From contig NZ_JACCCY010000004.1 of the NCBI RefSeq assembly GCF_013409575.1, forward strand, positions 248,001 to 312,000: a stretch of DNA of 64,000 nucleotides, written 5' to 3'. The translations under genes and the position numbers were made by a program. The DNA comes from Macellibacteroides fermentans. GTDB lineage: Bacteria; Bacteroidota; Bacteroidia; Bacteroidales; Tannerellaceae. The notes beneath the pieces are model-generated. The model worked only from the letters and a program-made list of their open reading frames with translations. It did not search any database and had not been told where the DNA came from. Positions 25,095-30,229 of the stretch are shown here, one piece after another (position 1 is the first letter of the stretch; each line of letters starts with the position of its first letter).

Positions 25095-26111
25095 CTACTT
25101 TAAAGTTATTACTATGTTGCGTTCACGTTTGCTATATGCAATTTTATCTGTCGAAGCCAGAATATTCAATATTTCGTCAATTGTTTGTTCTTTACGTACA
25201 AAGTTTCCGTAAAAACGATAATTGTTCAGCGTATCGTCGGCTATTTGTATATTTACATTGTAAGCACGTTCAAGCTCTTTGGCAATGTCGGGTAATAATT
25301 TCTCATCAAAAAAGAGATACCCTTTAGTCCATTCAGTAGCATACCCCGTTTTACCGCGAACCAACTGAGTTTTACCATTTCTCTTGTTCAGTACAATCTT
25401 CTCATCGGGTAGGAGAGGAAGCGTCTCTTCTCTATTTAAATGATTGATCATACTAACTTTCCCTTCCAGAAGACTAACCACGGCCTCGGCATCATCATCG
25501 TAGTTACGGAGGTTAAATGTCGTTCCCAATACCTCAACCGACAGTTCGCGGGCCTGAATCCTGAAAGGAAGATCTTTATTTTTAGTCACCTCAAAGTAAC
25601 CCTCACCCGAAAGTTGTAAATTACGGTTATCCACACCGAATCCCTGCGAATAGATAATCTTTGATCCTGCATTCAGATGTACGCGCGTTCCGTCTGGCAG
25701 TCTAAGGATGCTGTTCGAACCCATCGGAACCTCCACCACCATATCCTGAAAACGGTTTCGCATTACGTTTCCCCCCTGCCAATAAGCAGAATATGTAACA
25801 AGCAGCAATAAAGCCACCACAGCTGCAGTATAGGCATATTTTTTCAAGATAAGCTTTCGCTCTTTCGATTGTTTTTGCTCCCTCACGCGGTTTAGAAATT
25901 TCTGAAAACCTTTATCGCTGTCAAAGGATGATGTATCTTTTGCACTTATAGAGGCAAGCCATATTTCTCTCCTTGTGTGAAAATAACGTTCGTTTTCGGC
26001 AGACGCATCAATCCACCTTTCCAGTTCCCGTTGCTCCTCTTCGTTTAGTCTGTGAGACAGGTATTCGGAAATAAGGTCATCCATACGTGTATTTTCTTCA
26101 GTTTGCTTCAT
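25095..26111 (-). CDS. FecR-family anti-sigma factor
   Basis: A 338-residue single-pass inner-membrane protein. The cytoplasmic N-terminal part (residues 1-88) has the LSHRLNEEEQRELERWI-type segment. A transmembrane helix follows at about 90-108 (YAAVVALLLLVTYSAYWQ region). The periplasmic FecR domain has GSNSILRLPDGTRVHLNAGS near residue 132, GEGYFEVTKNKDLPF near 167 and LLEGKVSM near 215, then a DUF4974-like C-terminal segment from about 265. It would hold the adjacent ECF sigma factor inactive until the SusC STN domain signals substrate import. Confidence 0.95.
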   Translation of the reverse strand: MKQTEENTRMDDLISEYLSHRLNEEEQRELERWIDASAENERYFHTRREIWLASISAKDTSSFDSDKGFQKFLNRVREQKQSKERKLILKKYAYTAAVVALLLLVTYSAYWQGGNVMRNRFQDMVVEVPMGSNSILRLPDGTRVHLNAGSKIIYSQGFGVDNRNLQLSGEGYFEVTKNKDLPFRIQARELSVEVLGTTFNLRNYDDDAEAVVSLLEGKVSMINHLNREETLPLLPDEKIVLNKRNGKTQLVRGKTGYATEWTKGYLFFDEKLLPDIAKELERAYNVNIQIADDTLNNYRFYGNFVRKEQTIDEILNILASTDKIAYSKRERNIVITLK

Positions 26112-26178
26112 AATTTTTGCCGCTTATTAATATAGACAGTTTAATAAAAGGGAGAGGGTAGTGGACCTCTGCTTTTTT

Positions 26179-26778
26179 TTAATTTATTTGCCGGAATGCA
26201 ATAAGAAGGAGTAAAAGATACTTTGAAAGATCTGCGTTAAGACGAGACAGTGCCATTTTCATGTGATACTTTACCGTATTGACCGATATACCCAGTTCAC
26301 GGGCAATGCATTCATAGGTCTTTTCCTCGAATCGACTTTTGATAAATACGGCGCGGCATTCATCGGGCAACCGGTTAATCGCCTGCCGGATCTCCTCTTC
26401 CAGCTCTTTCTCCAACAAAGATGCCAGTGGATAAGCATCGCTAAACAAGTTGGGATGCATTATGGAATCACCGTTCTCCTCTATAGTAGTGAAGCCCTCT
26501 TCCCATTGTTCCCGCTTAATATTGAGGTAATTGATACAACGGTTTCTTACTGCTCTTACCAGATAGCTTCGGATGGATATATTGATTTCCAGCGTTTCCC
26601 TTATTTCCCACACATGAAATAAGGTATCACCAACAATATTTTCGGCCATAAAAACATCACGAACAAACTCATTTGCCATTTTACAGAGCAATACATAGTG
26701 TTCGTCATACAAATATTTGTATGCTTTCTCATCACCCTGCTTTAGTAGGTCAACAATTATTTGTTCTTGTTTTTTCAT
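26179..26778 (-). CDS. RNA polymerase ECF sigma-70 factor (FecI/RpoE-like)
   Basis: A 199-residue ECF sigma factor with region 2 (YKYLYDEHYVLLCKMANEFV near residue 18, VWEIRETLEINISIRSYLV near 56) and region 4 (INRLPDECRAVFIKSRFEE near 138 and the helix-turn-helix ECIARELGISVNTVKYHMKM near 161). It directs transcription of the SusC/SusD/GH16 genes once released by FecR. The gene precedes fecR by 67 bases. Two -7-like TATATTTG boxes lie just before its ATG, at 26783-26790 and 26801-26808. The second overlaps the first repeat of the array next to the VirE-type gene. Confidence 0.94.
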   Translation of the reverse strand: MKKQEQIIVDLLKQGDEKAYKYLYDEHYVLLCKMANEFVRDVFMAENIVGDTLFHVWEIRETLEINISIRSYLVRAVRNRCINYLNIKREQWEEGFTTIEENGDSIMHPNLFSDAYPLASLLEKELEEEIRQAINRLPDECRAVFIKSRFEEKTYECIARELGISVNTVKYHMKMALSRLNADLSKYLLLLLIAFRQIN

Positions 26779-26805
26779 CGCGCAAATATAGATTTATTTA
26801 CAAAT

Positions 26806-26962
26806 ATATCCTTCACATCCTTCACTTATTTATGTAATGCGTTGTTTATGAGAAGGATATCTCCTTTGTTGCCGGAAATATCCTTCACTTTTTGGGGAAT
26901 ATCCTTCACTTTTGAAACGATATCCTTCACTTTGGACGAAATATCCTTCACTTTTCCTTCAC
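26806..26962. repeat. Left iteron-like array, 21-bp period (ATATCCTTCACTTT)
   Basis: Four perfect copies of ATATCCTTCACTTT start at 26878, 26899, 26920 and 26941, exactly 21 bases apart. Shorter copies lie at 26806-26816, 26817-26827 and 26954-26962. The last perfect copy runs into the 3' end of the VirE-type gene (stop at 26948). The same 14-mer occurs on the opposite strand in the array at 29098-29256, so the two arrays form inverted flanks of that gene. Confidence 0.9.
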
Positions 26963-29029
26963 AAGGTATACATTGCCGCTGTTGGTGTGTTTGCGGGCTA
27001 TCTGGTTTCGGAGCAGCAACCGGCCGAATAATCCGGCGGAGGTGTTGCTGAAGGTTGCCCCGCTCAGCTCGCTTACCCGTTCCAGAATTTCGGTGGCCGA
27101 CAACCACTTGCCGCCTTCCGTTTCGTTACCGGCTTCGTAAAAACGAAGGAAATATTGCTCCTCCAGCGGCACGCGCTGAAACTCACGGTTGCTCTCCATG
27201 GTGGCCCGTTCCTCTTCCGCCGTAAACCAGAATCGCTCCCCTTTACGCACCGCTTCCATGGCCTGAGCATATAGCTGGTCGTAATCCACATCCTGCACCG
27301 GCTTCACATAGCCCGTCACCTCAACCCCGATAAACCGGCGGCTGCCCGACGGATCGGTCAGCGTATCCATCGTGTTACACGTGGCGATAAAGGAAGCAAC
27401 CCTGTTCAGTCTTCGTACCCCCTTTTCGTGGGGCATACGCACCTTCACCTCGGGCAGCTGGATAATGCTTTTCAAGTAACTCTGCTGCGAGGCACGCAAG
27501 GAATCAAACTCATCCAGATTGATCAGGATATACCGGCTCAGGTTCAGCGTAGCCTCCTTCCGATTGCTTAGGTCGGTCGTCTCGATGTAGAAATCCTGCA
27601 ATACAGGCGGCAAAAGCTTCCGGCACCACGACGACTTACCAGCACCCTGGAAACCTACAAGTAAAGGCAATGTACTGTTGGCATGTAATTTATCCAACTG
27701 CTTCCAGTGCGCCACCATACTCAGGAACCAGGTATAAAACAGATCCGGCCAGGCCCCGTTATCCGTTGGCACACACCGAGCCAGCGGTCTGATCCGGTCC
27801 ACGCCATCCCAGGCAGGCAACCGGTCCAGGTATTCATCCACCGGATTATACTCCGGAATCCGGTCCGACTGCACAAACCGTTTAACATCCCGGTCCCATA
27901 CCTTCAGTCCCTCCAGTAAAGCCTTTTGCGTAATGGAATTCATCACCTCCGGCGTAACCGGACGGAAATCAAAATAGTAACTCCTGCGCTCCCGGAACTC
28001 CACCGCTTCGGTCAGCATATTTCGCCGGAACATAAACCGCCGGGCCAGAAACTCCTCCAGCCAGATCACATTCTTCTGCTCCTGCGGCATGGCAGGCTTC
28101 ACCCCGAAACCCTCCTTGCGCGATAACTTATACACATTGCCCACCACTGTACGCAATTCCATCTCAGCTTCCGAAAGCCAGGGGTAGAGTAATGCCCACC
28201 GAATCACATCCTCCTCCGGAATGCCGGCACCCCAGCAGAAACGTGCCAGCCTCGTAAAGAAAAGAGAGGCATCCGCACCATCATCCGCCGGCGAACCACA
28301 AAACAGAATGGTCTGCTGCAAAGCCGAATCAAACAAACCCGAAACCAAGCGGCTTCGTTCTTGTCCCGGTTTCATCCGCAGCAACGCATTCATATTGATG
28401 ACCGGATTATCTGCAACATTCACCTCCCCTTTAGGCATACCCAATGGCTGTTCCAGAACTAAAGGAACCGCCTGCGGATTGTAATATAAATCCGGATCCC
28501 ACGACATGCGGCAGCCCCTGGCCGGATCGGGTTTCTTCAAGGAAACTTCACACCGAAGCTGTGCTTCGTAGTGCGAAGCCGCCAACTTATAGGCATGGGC
28601 ATGAAATAAATTCACCTGCAGCGGATCGGAGGGCAACGAACCATCGGGTAGGGTGAACGACACCAGCACTTTAACGCTTCGTCCGCTTACACCCACAAAA
28701 GCCGCCAGCGTAGCCAGCGAATCCGCGGCAGCAGACCGGATCTCCTGTGCCTCCTTCAACCCCGACAAGGAATTGAACTCCAGCAATACCACACCATTGT
28801 ATTGTTTTATTTCGGGTGAACCCCCTTTTTCGTCCAGCAAGGCGCCAAACACCGCCACTGGAATTTTATCCATACCTACTACATCGCCAACCAGGAGGCG
28901 ACTTCCCATATTCTCTCTCACAAAGGCGACCGGAAGTCCGGCCGTTCTCGTTTTCATTGACTCAAGCAGTGTACACAGCTCCATCACTTTCCGTGATCTG
29001 CCGTCGCCACTGATGCGGGTTACTTTCAT
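26948..29029 (-). CDS. BT4734/VirE-family primase-helicase-like protein
   Basis: A 693-residue protein with the layout of the Bacteroidales VirE family. A BT4734-like N-terminal domain (about residues 45-200) is followed by a helical VirE-N-like middle. The VirE P-loop ATPase has Walker A GFQGAGKSSW near residue 457, Walker B ILINLDEFDSL near 490, a sensor-like SFIATCNTMDTL near 550 and an arginine finger-like GSRRFIGVEV near 565. A winged-helix-like C-terminus (WLSATEILERVSEL) would bind DNA. Such proteins resemble replication initiators of mobile elements. Repeat arrays flank the gene on both sides in inverted orientation. Its real role is unknown; these genes are frequent beside Bacteroidales polysaccharide loci. 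Confidence 0.85.
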   Translation of the reverse strand: MKVTRISGDGRSRKVMELCTLLESMKTRTAGLPVAFVRENMGSRLLVGDVVGMDKIPVAVFGALLDEKGGSPEIKQYNGVVLLEFNSLSGLKEAQEIRSAAADSLATLAAFVGVSGRSVKVLVSFTLPDGSLPSDPLQVNLFHAHAYKLAASHYEAQLRCEVSLKKPDPARGCRMSWDPDLYYNPQAVPLVLEQPLGMPKGEVNVADNPVINMNALLRMKPGQERSRLVSGLFDSALQQTILFCGSPADDGADASLFFTRLARFCWGAGIPEEDVIRWALLYPWLSEAEMELRTVVGNVYKLSRKEGFGVKPAMPQEQKNVIWLEEFLARRFMFRRNMLTEAVEFRERRSYYFDFRPVTPEVMNSITQKALLEGLKVWDRDVKRFVQSDRIPEYNPVDEYLDRLPAWDGVDRIRPLARCVPTDNGAWPDLFYTWFLSMVAHWKQLDKLHANSTLPLLVGFQGAGKSSWCRKLLPPVLQDFYIETTDLSNRKEATLNLSRYILINLDEFDSLRASQQSYLKSIIQLPEVKVRMPHEKGVRRLNRVASFIATCNTMDTLTDPSGSRRFIGVEVTGYVKPVQDVDYDQLYAQAMEAVRKGERFWFTAEEERATMESNREFQRVPLEEQYFLRFYEAGNETEGGKWLSATEILERVSELSGATFSNTSAGLFGRLLLRNQIARKHTNSGNVYLVKEK

Positions 29030-29097
29030 TCAGTTTCGATTTAATTAAAGATATAAAGATAACTTATAGATTTCATTCCTGCAAATAAAACACCCCT

Positions 29098-29256
29098 AAA
29101 GTGAAGGATAATCGGCCCAATGAACCCCAAAGTGAAGGATATTTCTCTGAAAGTGAAGGATAATCGATGAAAAGTGAAGGATATTTGATTTGCGGATTCC
29201 GATAACAATCTGACTAATAGAGCGCTGCATTAAAAAGTGAAGGAAGTGAAGGATAT
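29098..29256. repeat. Right iteron-like array (AAAGTGAAGGATAT), inverted relative to the left array
   Basis: Copies of AAAGTGAAGGATAT/AA start at 29098, 29129, 29150 and 29171, and a compound copy spans 29234-29256. The middle three are exactly 21 bases apart; the first is 31 bases away (three helical turns). The array lies upstream of the VirE-type gene start (29029), so it also covers that gene's presumed promoter. It is outside any reading frame. Confidence 0.88.
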
Positions 29257-29331
29257 TTTCGCGAAATAAGATTTAGAAACAGACATCGAATATCTTTACG
29301 AGTAATAATATTCCGAAATATAGAAAATAAT

Positions 29332-29385: not shown

Positions 29386-29679
29386 ATGAGAATCGTCTCC
29401 CGAAGTACATTAGTTCTTTTTTATAAAAAGCATGCAGATGCAGAAACTGCTATTGAAGAATGGATAAAAAAGACAGAGAAGGCAGATTGGTCATGTGCTG
29501 CAGACGTTAAACGGACATTTAACTCGGTTGATAGTGTAGGCAATCAGCATTACGTTTTTAATATAAAAGGGAACGATTACAGGCTTGTTGCGGTTATTAA
29601 ATTTCAGATTAAAATGGTGTATATCCGTTTTATAGGCAAACATAAAGAATACGATCAAATAGACAGCACCAATATATAA
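29386..29679 (+). CDS. higB: HigB-type mRNA interferase toxin
   Basis: A 97-residue RelE-superfamily protein of the HigB type. Features are RIVSRSTLVLFYKKHADAE at the start, KADWSCAADVKRTFNSVDSV in the middle, then FNIKGNDYRLVAVIKF and YIRFIGKHKEYDQID at the end, the last carrying the usual His/Tyr region. HigB toxins cut mRNA on the ribosome. The toxin gene comes first and the antitoxin starts four bases later, the order normal for higBA. It has a well-formed promoter at 29332-29362. The pair sits between the VirE-type unit and the large polysaccharide cluster, where it may help keep the region. Confidence 0.92.
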   Translation: MRIVSRSTLVLFYKKHADAETAIEEWIKKTEKADWSCAADVKRTFNSVDSVGNQHYVFNIKGNDYRLVAVIKFQIKMVYIRFIGKHKEYDQIDSTNI

Positions 29680-29683
29680 TACA

Positions 29684-30049
29684 ATGGCAAAGATAACTTC
29701 TGAAATAGCTTACAAAGCGACAATGGAAAGAATAGAAGAACTTCTTCCCCTTGTAGATGATTCTACTCCGATGGATGATAGAAATCTTATTGAACTTGAG
29801 CTGCTTTCTAATCTTGTGGCTGATTATGAGGAAGAACATTATCCTGTTAAAACTCCCACTTTATTGGAGGTAATTAAACTTCGTATGTATGAAATGAATC
29901 TCACTCAGAATAAACTTTCCCAATTATTAAATGTATCACCCTCCCGTATAAGTGAATATCTTTCCGGAAAGAGTGAACCCACTTTAAAGATTGCCCGCGA
30001 GATTAGTAAAAAGTTAAATATAGATCCGGATATTGTATTAGGGGTTTAA
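29684..30049 (+). CDS. higA: HigA-type antitoxin (XRE helix-turn-helix)
   Basis: A 121-residue antitoxin. The N-terminal half (residues 1-60) is acidic and helical, and would wrap the toxin. The C-terminal XRE-family domain has LLEVIKLRMYEMNLTQNKLS, then the recognition helix NVSPSRISEYLSGKSEPTLK near residue 88. It should neutralise HigB and repress the operon promoter. Translation is probably coupled to higB. No toxin-typical truncation is seen, so the pair appears intact. Confidence 0.92.
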   Translation: MAKITSEIAYKATMERIEELLPLVDDSTPMDDRNLIELELLSNLVADYEEEHYPVKTPTLLEVIKLRMYEMNLTQNKLSQLLNVSPSRISEYLSGKSEPTLKIAREISKKLNIDPDIVLGV

Positions 30050-30124: not shown

Positions 30125-30229
30125 AAAAAGTATATACTTTTTATCACCAAAGATATATCTTTCAATCACCAAAGATATATCTTTGAGAAACCATTCCTAT
30201 ATCTTTGAACTTTCAAACATATAGGAATG
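30125..30229. repeat. Cluster of AT-rich palindromes
   Basis: Four palindromes in 105 bases between the convergent higA and wzz genes: an 18-bp perfect one (AAAAAGTATATACTTTTT, 30125-30142), AAAGATATATCTTT (30149-30162), CAAAGATATATCTTTG (30170-30185), and a near-perfect hairpin at 30192-30229 with arms CATTCCTATATcTTTGAA and its complement. The second and third share an ATCACC lead 22 bases apart. TATCTTTG -7-like motifs occur inside them. Confidence 0.8.

Follow-up and report, generated by a model that had tools for sequence, protein, structure and literature searches.

Iteron origins of plasmids and of phage-satellite islands are made of direct repeats at two-turn spacing beside the gene of a helicase-initiator, and REP sequences flank the RAYT gene. 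In the available portion of the RAYT/REPIN account, the repeat is dispersed in intergenic regions as singlets and inverted doublets, and several unlike families occur, each tied to its own gene (PMC3116915). The available part of the description of BrickBuilt, in Porphyromonas gingivalis, presents it in 19 intergenic copies with 23-nt tandem repeats inside an inverted-repeat element (PMC4596501). The BT4734/BF3469 family was placed in the AEP superfamily, whose catalytic motif I is defined as hhhDhD/E in the excerpt consulted (PMC5862659). A 2010 table, itself part of a longer source, listed 72 members of PF08800 in gut genomes and 1 elsewhere (PMC2880560). No mention of flanking repeats was found in the available parts of the published accounts of the BT4734/BF3469 family, and the open-licence literature yielded neither a published function for BT4734/VirE genes nor a published report of a VirE gene paired with a system of dispersed ends.

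The window, i.e. the whole stretch of 64,000 nucleotides analysed here, contains a VirE-type gene enclosed by two inverted arrays of short sites (Table 1). Both sides follow the same order in mirror image: an end motif (family consensus about TTTYGCRAAA), a doubled 9-mer hereafter called compound, a spacer of about 50 bp, the phased single sites and the gene. One compound terminates each array. At 10.5 bp per turn, distances of 21, 31 and 63 bp correspond to 2.0, 2.95 and 6.0 helical turns, and 9 bases to 0.86. The preliminary description had reported four exact 14-mers at 21-base steps on the 3' side, and complementary copies at steps of 31, 21 and 21 followed by a compound on the 5' side. 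Both arrays were recovered, two of the four 5'-side copies carrying one mismatch; the matching compound of the 3' side and the degenerate inverted copy at 26847 are additional to that description. The extent of the unit is putative and was deduced from the ends common to sister species and to dispersed copies.

Table 1. Coordinates in the window of the VirE unit, its component sites and the adjoining gene pair
Feature	Position	Strand	Detail
ECF sigma/FecR pair	25095-26778		One side of the VirE unit
Whole unit (putative extent): inverted end, array, VirE, array, inverted end	26796-29266		About 2.47 kb
Left unit end: end motif ATTTACAAAT and compound ATATCCTTCACATCCTTCACTTA	26796-26828	+	Two copies 9 bp apart in the compound; compound proper 26806-26828
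Degenerate inverted 14-mer copy	26847-26860	-	3 mismatches; possible hairpin arm
Array on the 3' side: ATATCCTTCACTTT, four exact copies at 26878, 26899, 26920, 26941	26878-26954	+	21-bp steps; last copy (26941) overlaps the 3' end of the VirE gene
VirE gene, 693 aa: BT4734-like_N (degenerate AEP primase domain), VapE-like AAA+ ATPase, DUF3874	26948-29029	-	Pfam
5'-side inverted array: exact 14-mers at 29129, 29171; 1-mismatch copies (TTATCC...) at 29098, 29150	29098-29184	-	Steps 31, 21, 21
Right unit end: compound ATATCCTTCACTTCCTTCACTTT (reverse strand) and end motif TTTCGCGAAA	29234-29266	-	Compound proper 29234-29256

When up to 3 mismatches were tolerated, the 14-mer matched the window 33 times, against 10.5 times (sd 3.2) in shuffled sequences, and 0 of 100 shuffles reached 33. 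Chance repeats were ruled out by these shuffles and by the reversed-pattern control on the genome given below. A coding signal was ruled out as well, all the sites lying outside the gene save the last 3'-side copy. The reading as an RNA element was dropped because no Rfam match was found at the arrays.

Pfam matches of the window protein were limited to BT4734-like_N (119 bits, curated cut-off 22.4), VapE-like (102 bits, curated cut-off 25), DUF3874 and DUF5906, with no tyrosine (HUH, Y1) transposase among them. The VirE-type identity first proposed from the sequence was thereby confirmed. Searching the PDB sequences retrieved the VapE-type entry 7pds with an E-value of 3e-12; an AlphaFold model built from 6 sequences was too poor to be used (pLDDT 39.9). 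Walker A, Walker B and the arginine finger, which read GFQGAGKSS, LINLDEFD and GSRRF in the window protein, are intact there and in nearly all its homologues. Primase motif I reads VVLLEFN and departs from the hhhDhD/E definition by the loss of the second acidic residue. This acid is missing in nearly all window-like sequences, the exceptions being L091 (LVEVDN) and L092 (LVEADG); among remote homologues motif I reads LCDFD in L110 and LILDIDKL in L111, the most distant one. Given this loss, the protein is unlikely to serve in primer synthesis.

The state of motif I bears on the possibility that the arrays are iterons of an integrated small replicon, plasmid or phage satellite, with VirE as its initiator-helicase. 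Direct phased iterons would suit an initiator, and distant VirE relatives were detected by tblastn in 278 phage and 51 plasmid records, all below 60% identity. According to the excerpt consulted, both VapE-type helicases and primases of the BT4734 type are components of the modules by which mobile elements replicate (PMC5862659). However, the one-gene unit contains no integrase, relaxase or other replicon gene, the 21-bp array occurs in no contig of the viral collection, and the gene-less inverted pairs described below are left unexplained. Moreover, motif I is degenerate in nearly all the window-like subfamily and the primase domain is absent from the related unit of another genus (G049, see below). 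We thus consider a replication origin improbable. The initial iteron-like reading was half right: its phased arrays and unit ends stand, and its replication origin is not supported, in view of the degenerate motif I and the missing primase domain of G049. A phage origin was rejected, no viral contig carrying the 21-bp array and a single weak VirE relative being found among viral contigs.

The six nearest genes scanned encode VirE, ECF sigma, FecR, HigB, an HTH antitoxin and Wzz. On the side of the unit opposite to the ECF sigma/FecR pair lie a HigB-type toxin gene and an HTH antitoxin gene (29386-30049), followed by a capsule locus starting with Wzz; one sister species (G001) has a 354-aa gene in place of this toxin-antitoxin pair. 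Between Wzz and the gene of the HTH antitoxin, at 30127-30209, runs a second array, AAAGATATATCTTT, with steps of about 22 bp. When no more than one mismatch was allowed, the palindromic core of this array, TCAAAGATATATCTTTGA, was located at 5 positions of the window's genome (G000), 3 of G001 and 3 of another sister species, G002. A further VirE-like protein may recognise this array.

The arrays are not special to the VirE gene. The search of G000 (3.94 Mb, 10 contigs) revealed a family dispersed over the whole genome: the exact 14-mer was found 21 times (reversed pattern, 0) and the compound core, with at most one mismatch, 11 times (reversed pattern, 0). Two of the 11 compounds flank VirE, and the other nine belong to solo arrays that are intergenic and have no VirE-type gene. 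When solo and VirE arrays are aligned inward from the same outer end motif, the end motif, the compound and the phased sites are common to all, while the outer flanks beyond the end motif are unrelated. The arrays lie between large ORFs, except C2:806k, which is overlapped by a putative 152-aa ORF, and the genes beside the solo arrays present no common theme. The VirE-flanking compounds form the only facing pair within 89 kb, and the second of the two BT4734-like_N genes of G000 (L031) is without such an array. A private operator of the VirE gene alone is ruled out by the nine solo arrays. Extending the compound search (at most one mismatch) to 147 relatives gave matches in 14 of them, with more than one copy only in the genus (11 in G000, 6 in G001 and 9 in G002) and in G079 (4 copies).

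Some other features were observed around these sites. In G079 the compound pairs point apart, 126-145 bp from start to start, and are without phased single sites (L081 7859-8002, L082 4012-4174). Another kind of palindromic repeat, about 150 bp long, was observed close to four solo arrays (L023 8016-8185, L029 7591-7750, L030 8113-8312 and L068 8241-8410). The solo array C2:368k is located upstream of an 847-aa gene (L024 7545-10088) whose product starts in the manner of Cas9 (MNKILGLDLGTNSIGWAVV).

We compared the locus with the sister species of the genus. The absence of arrays around orthologues was to count against the preliminary description, and in G001, the closest case, both arrays flank a VirE gene 87% identical to that of the window (L084/L069), which adjoins the same Wza/Wzz capsule genes. 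In G002, which is about 95% identical in DNA to G001 over shared loci, no VirE gene of this kind was found in an assembly 92% complete. The G002 genome contains an internally deleted unit of about 360 bp, in which the last VirE codons, GENVYMVKEKVKDY, are kept between both inverted arrays, and a second gene-less inverted pair is common to G001 and G002. Since these ends are met again in a sister species and in copies without the gene, the existence of a discrete unit bounded by the arrays, initially estimated at about 2.45 kb, is borne out. The iteron sequence also varies within the genus. The CACTTT variant is found in G000, both at the VirE flanks (8) and in the solos (25). CACCTT prevails at the G001 VirE flanks (5) and in the deleted unit of G002 (5), and in the solos of G002 it is counted 11 times against 5 for CACTTT; the G001 solos, with one of each, are too few to tell. 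The VirE-flank and the dispersed sites have changed in concert between G000 and G001/G002.

The array C2:806k of G000 is conserved at the orthologous site of G002 (C99), in DNA 81% identical; at one site the array has collapsed in G001 relative to G002, and C3:583k of G000 corresponds to a collapsed remnant in both G001 and G002. Seven of the nine G000 solo arrays were queried by their flanks for empty sites within the genus. Two sites gave no trace of an array in G001, with flanks too diverged to place the ends, so that insertion and deletion are indistinguishable there; the other five gave one collapsed remnant and four cases without usable synteny. Of the two remaining arrays, one has an orthologous array in G002 and the other a nearby array in opposite orientation. 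Some arrays are old, and array differences at other sites can be losses.

A more amplified form was detected in G049, a genome of another genus of the same family. In its 2.4-kb unit, bounded by terminal inverted repeats of about 110 bp, an HU-HIG gene accompanies the gene of a 413-aa VapE/DUF3874 protein that lacks the primase domain. The end pattern, searched in 10 genomes, has 62 occurrences in G049, against 0 for the reversed control; G031 has two and the eight other sister species none, a species-specific amplification. The G049 ends form 20 facing pairs, 19 of which are gene-less, the last one being the 2414-bp unit enclosing HU-HIG and VapE; 22 ends are single, many of them near contig ends. 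The gene-less pairs measure 69-446 bp, mostly 341-394 bp. When the copies are aligned, the outer flanks are unrelated on one side, and the other side often carries a second array with 22-bp steps. This second tandem array, CTCCCGTCCGGGATAAAT, has a terminal inverted copy and adjoins one side of most gene-less copies (L156-L164).

DDE transposases move any DNA between matching ends, so a host IS transposase might recognise these ends and carry the VirE unit as one of its cargoes. BrickBuilt, the Porphyromonas miniature element whose tandem repeats are 23 nt long, has IS5-family-like ends in the available part of its description (PMC4596501). However, the genes enclosed by the 20 facing pairs of G049 and the 11 compounds of G000 are VapE or VirE only, with or without HU, and the only gene-bearing unit with G049 ends encodes HU-HIG and VapE/DUF3874, not a transposase. 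We also looked for target-site duplications of 4-9 nt in 12 G049 copies: at most 1 of the 12 showed one at any offset, shuffled pairing giving a mean of 0.86. A DDE transposase is argued against because no target duplication was found. Furthermore, the ends differ between VirE lineages but track the gene. All this makes the unit very unlikely to be the passenger of such an enzyme.

The G049 copies must also be weighed against the possibility that VirE, together with HU at the loci that have it, acts as a DNA-binding regulator, a nucleoid protein or a defence protein. The arrays beside the gene would then be its autoregulatory operators and the solo arrays further operators elsewhere, spread by ordinary recombination and not by VirE itself. 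In agreement with a regulon, the arrays are intergenic, two of them lie directly at the start and end of the VirE gene, solo arrays can persist at orthologous sites, the sites changed in concert with those of VirE, and the HU-HIG partners are DNA-binding proteins. Operators would hardly account for the presence of 62 ends in G049 and none in eight sister species. Facing gene-less pairs of near-constant size and the internally deleted unit look like miniature transposable elements, and the genes beside solo arrays lack a common theme. We consider that operators are an unlikely explanation. With regard to the HU partners, a 2017 study reportedly linked the expanded HU proteins of Bacteroidetes to mobile elements.

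We then turned to distant VirE genes. At 40-50% identity they are accompanied by other repeats arranged in a comparable way: the palindrome TACACCCGGGTGTACA, five times at 23-bp steps, in L135; ATAGGTAGTACTACCTAT at 23-bp steps with inverted AAACTAATTCA outside in L124 and L126; ATTTGCCATTTGCAAT on both sides of the gene in L118 and L121; ATCTGTCATCTGCCAC in L127; and TATGATGGTATGATAG outside HU and VirE in L122, L125 and L130. The end sequences are unlike between VirE lineages, yet they track the gene. No recognisable array was found at several homologues, e.g. L094, L134, L136 and L137. G081 contains a gene-less copy bearing both VirE arrays of an HU-VirE unit as well as the one located upstream of HU. 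The intergenic interval that holds this copy measures about 690 bp, and its counterpart between the same two genes of G153 about 115 bp, the native sequence being unalignable and no junction nameable.

Several procedures were compared to evaluate this layout. Exact 9-mer counting was too strict, giving a clear result only for the window and L069, with L127 (4) and L118 (3) just above shuffles. Counting repeats on 48 loci with shuffles as the sole control over-called, the excess being moderate against matched intergenic controls: 21 of 44 VirE flanks were positive against 14 of 62 other intergenic stretches (p = 0.006), some of the control matches lying, by their coordinates, one gene away, upstream of HU. 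We therefore relied on an inverted-match test comparing the 450 bp downstream of VirE with the 1600 bp upstream. It was applied to the 35 of the 48 loci where the alignment covered 600 residues or more at no less than 35% identity and a stop codon was present; several of these loci belong to close species and are non-independent. An inverted match scoring at least 14 between the two sides was obtained at 11 of the 35 loci, against 3 of 35 for direct matches and 4 of 140 for mispaired loci, some of which have related motifs.

Taken together, we lean slightly towards a single-gene element accompanied by miniature gene-less derivatives, which would spread through the action of the VapE-type ATPase on paired ends. 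Several observations speak against it: no movement was observed, the 12 G049 copies gave no target-site duplication, some arrays are old and differences at others can be losses, several VirE homologues are without recognisable array, and plain repeat counting separated VirE flanks from neighbouring intergenic DNA only moderately. Two inverted ends, each made of a doubled site and helically phased single sites, enclose the ATPase gene, and the VirE protein would bind these sites, probably via its C-terminal DUF3874 or its decayed primase domain. ATPase oligomers could align on the sites phased at 21 bp and bring the two ends together or melt them. With the help of host replication and recombination, copies of the ends, most of them lacking the gene, would then arise at new intergenic sites. 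The gene itself would act as a slowly inherited master copy, from which solo arrays and gene-less inverted pairs would derive as miniature forms, as REPINs do in relation to RAYT. More tentatively, and with real doubt, we propose that VapE-type AAA+ ATPases, alone or with an HU-HIG protein, spread short DNA carrying their own inverted, helically phased binding sites. We know of no helicase or primase of this kind that moves DNA. If the ATPase does drive the spread, DNA would move here although no known transposase, recombinase or HUH nuclease takes part, and a function would be assigned to the BT4734 family, which is large in gut Bacteroidales. If it is not the driver, the loci would still represent a large set of protein-DNA recognition pairs that diversify fast. 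Genes of the BT4734/VirE type are common in gut Bacteroidales, and once they are connected with defined DNA sites and with miniature copies that were amplified, their role can be tested.

The locus can finally be compared with known systems. As in iteron origins, direct repeats at two-turn spacing stand beside a helicase-type gene, but here there are two inverted sets, dispersed gene-less copies, no other replicon gene and a degenerate primase. The window protein resembles the BT4734/BF3469 family (AEP primase and VirE helicase) by its matches to PF08800, PF05272, PF12990 and PADLOC PrimPol, and deviates from the family definition in motif I, which lacks the second acidic residue. The terminal inverted repeats of G049, about 110 bp long, recall a MITE of a DDE transposase; unlike such a MITE, they come without a target-site duplication of fixed length and with a gene-bearing partner devoid of transposase. 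BrickBuilt, as far as its description was available (PMC4596501), is the nearest described element: it belongs to the same phylum, is intergenic and has helically sized tandem repeats within an inverted-repeat element. The same portion of text gives it IS5-family-like ends and names no gene-bearing copy, whereas a gene-bearing unit with the same ends is known here. As for RAYT/REPIN, in the portion of the account available, VirE is likewise a single-copy gene flanked by inverted copies of a short dispersed repeat, and, as with REPINs, the inverted doublets of G049 exceed chance (19 gene-less pairs, reversed control 0). The RAYT is a tyrosine HUH transposase and the REPIN has one palindrome, whereas the gene is here a VapE-type AAA+ ATPase with a decayed primase domain and the ends are phased 14-mer arrays with a doubled 9-mer. 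The copy number in G000, about ten, is low for a RAYT/REPIN system. This low number, the old conserved arrays and the stable position of the gene resemble RAYT/REPIN dynamics (PMC3116915) more than those of an active insertion sequence. What is new in the system is that a VapE gene, with no transposase, is coupled to a family of miniature DNA with inverted repeats.
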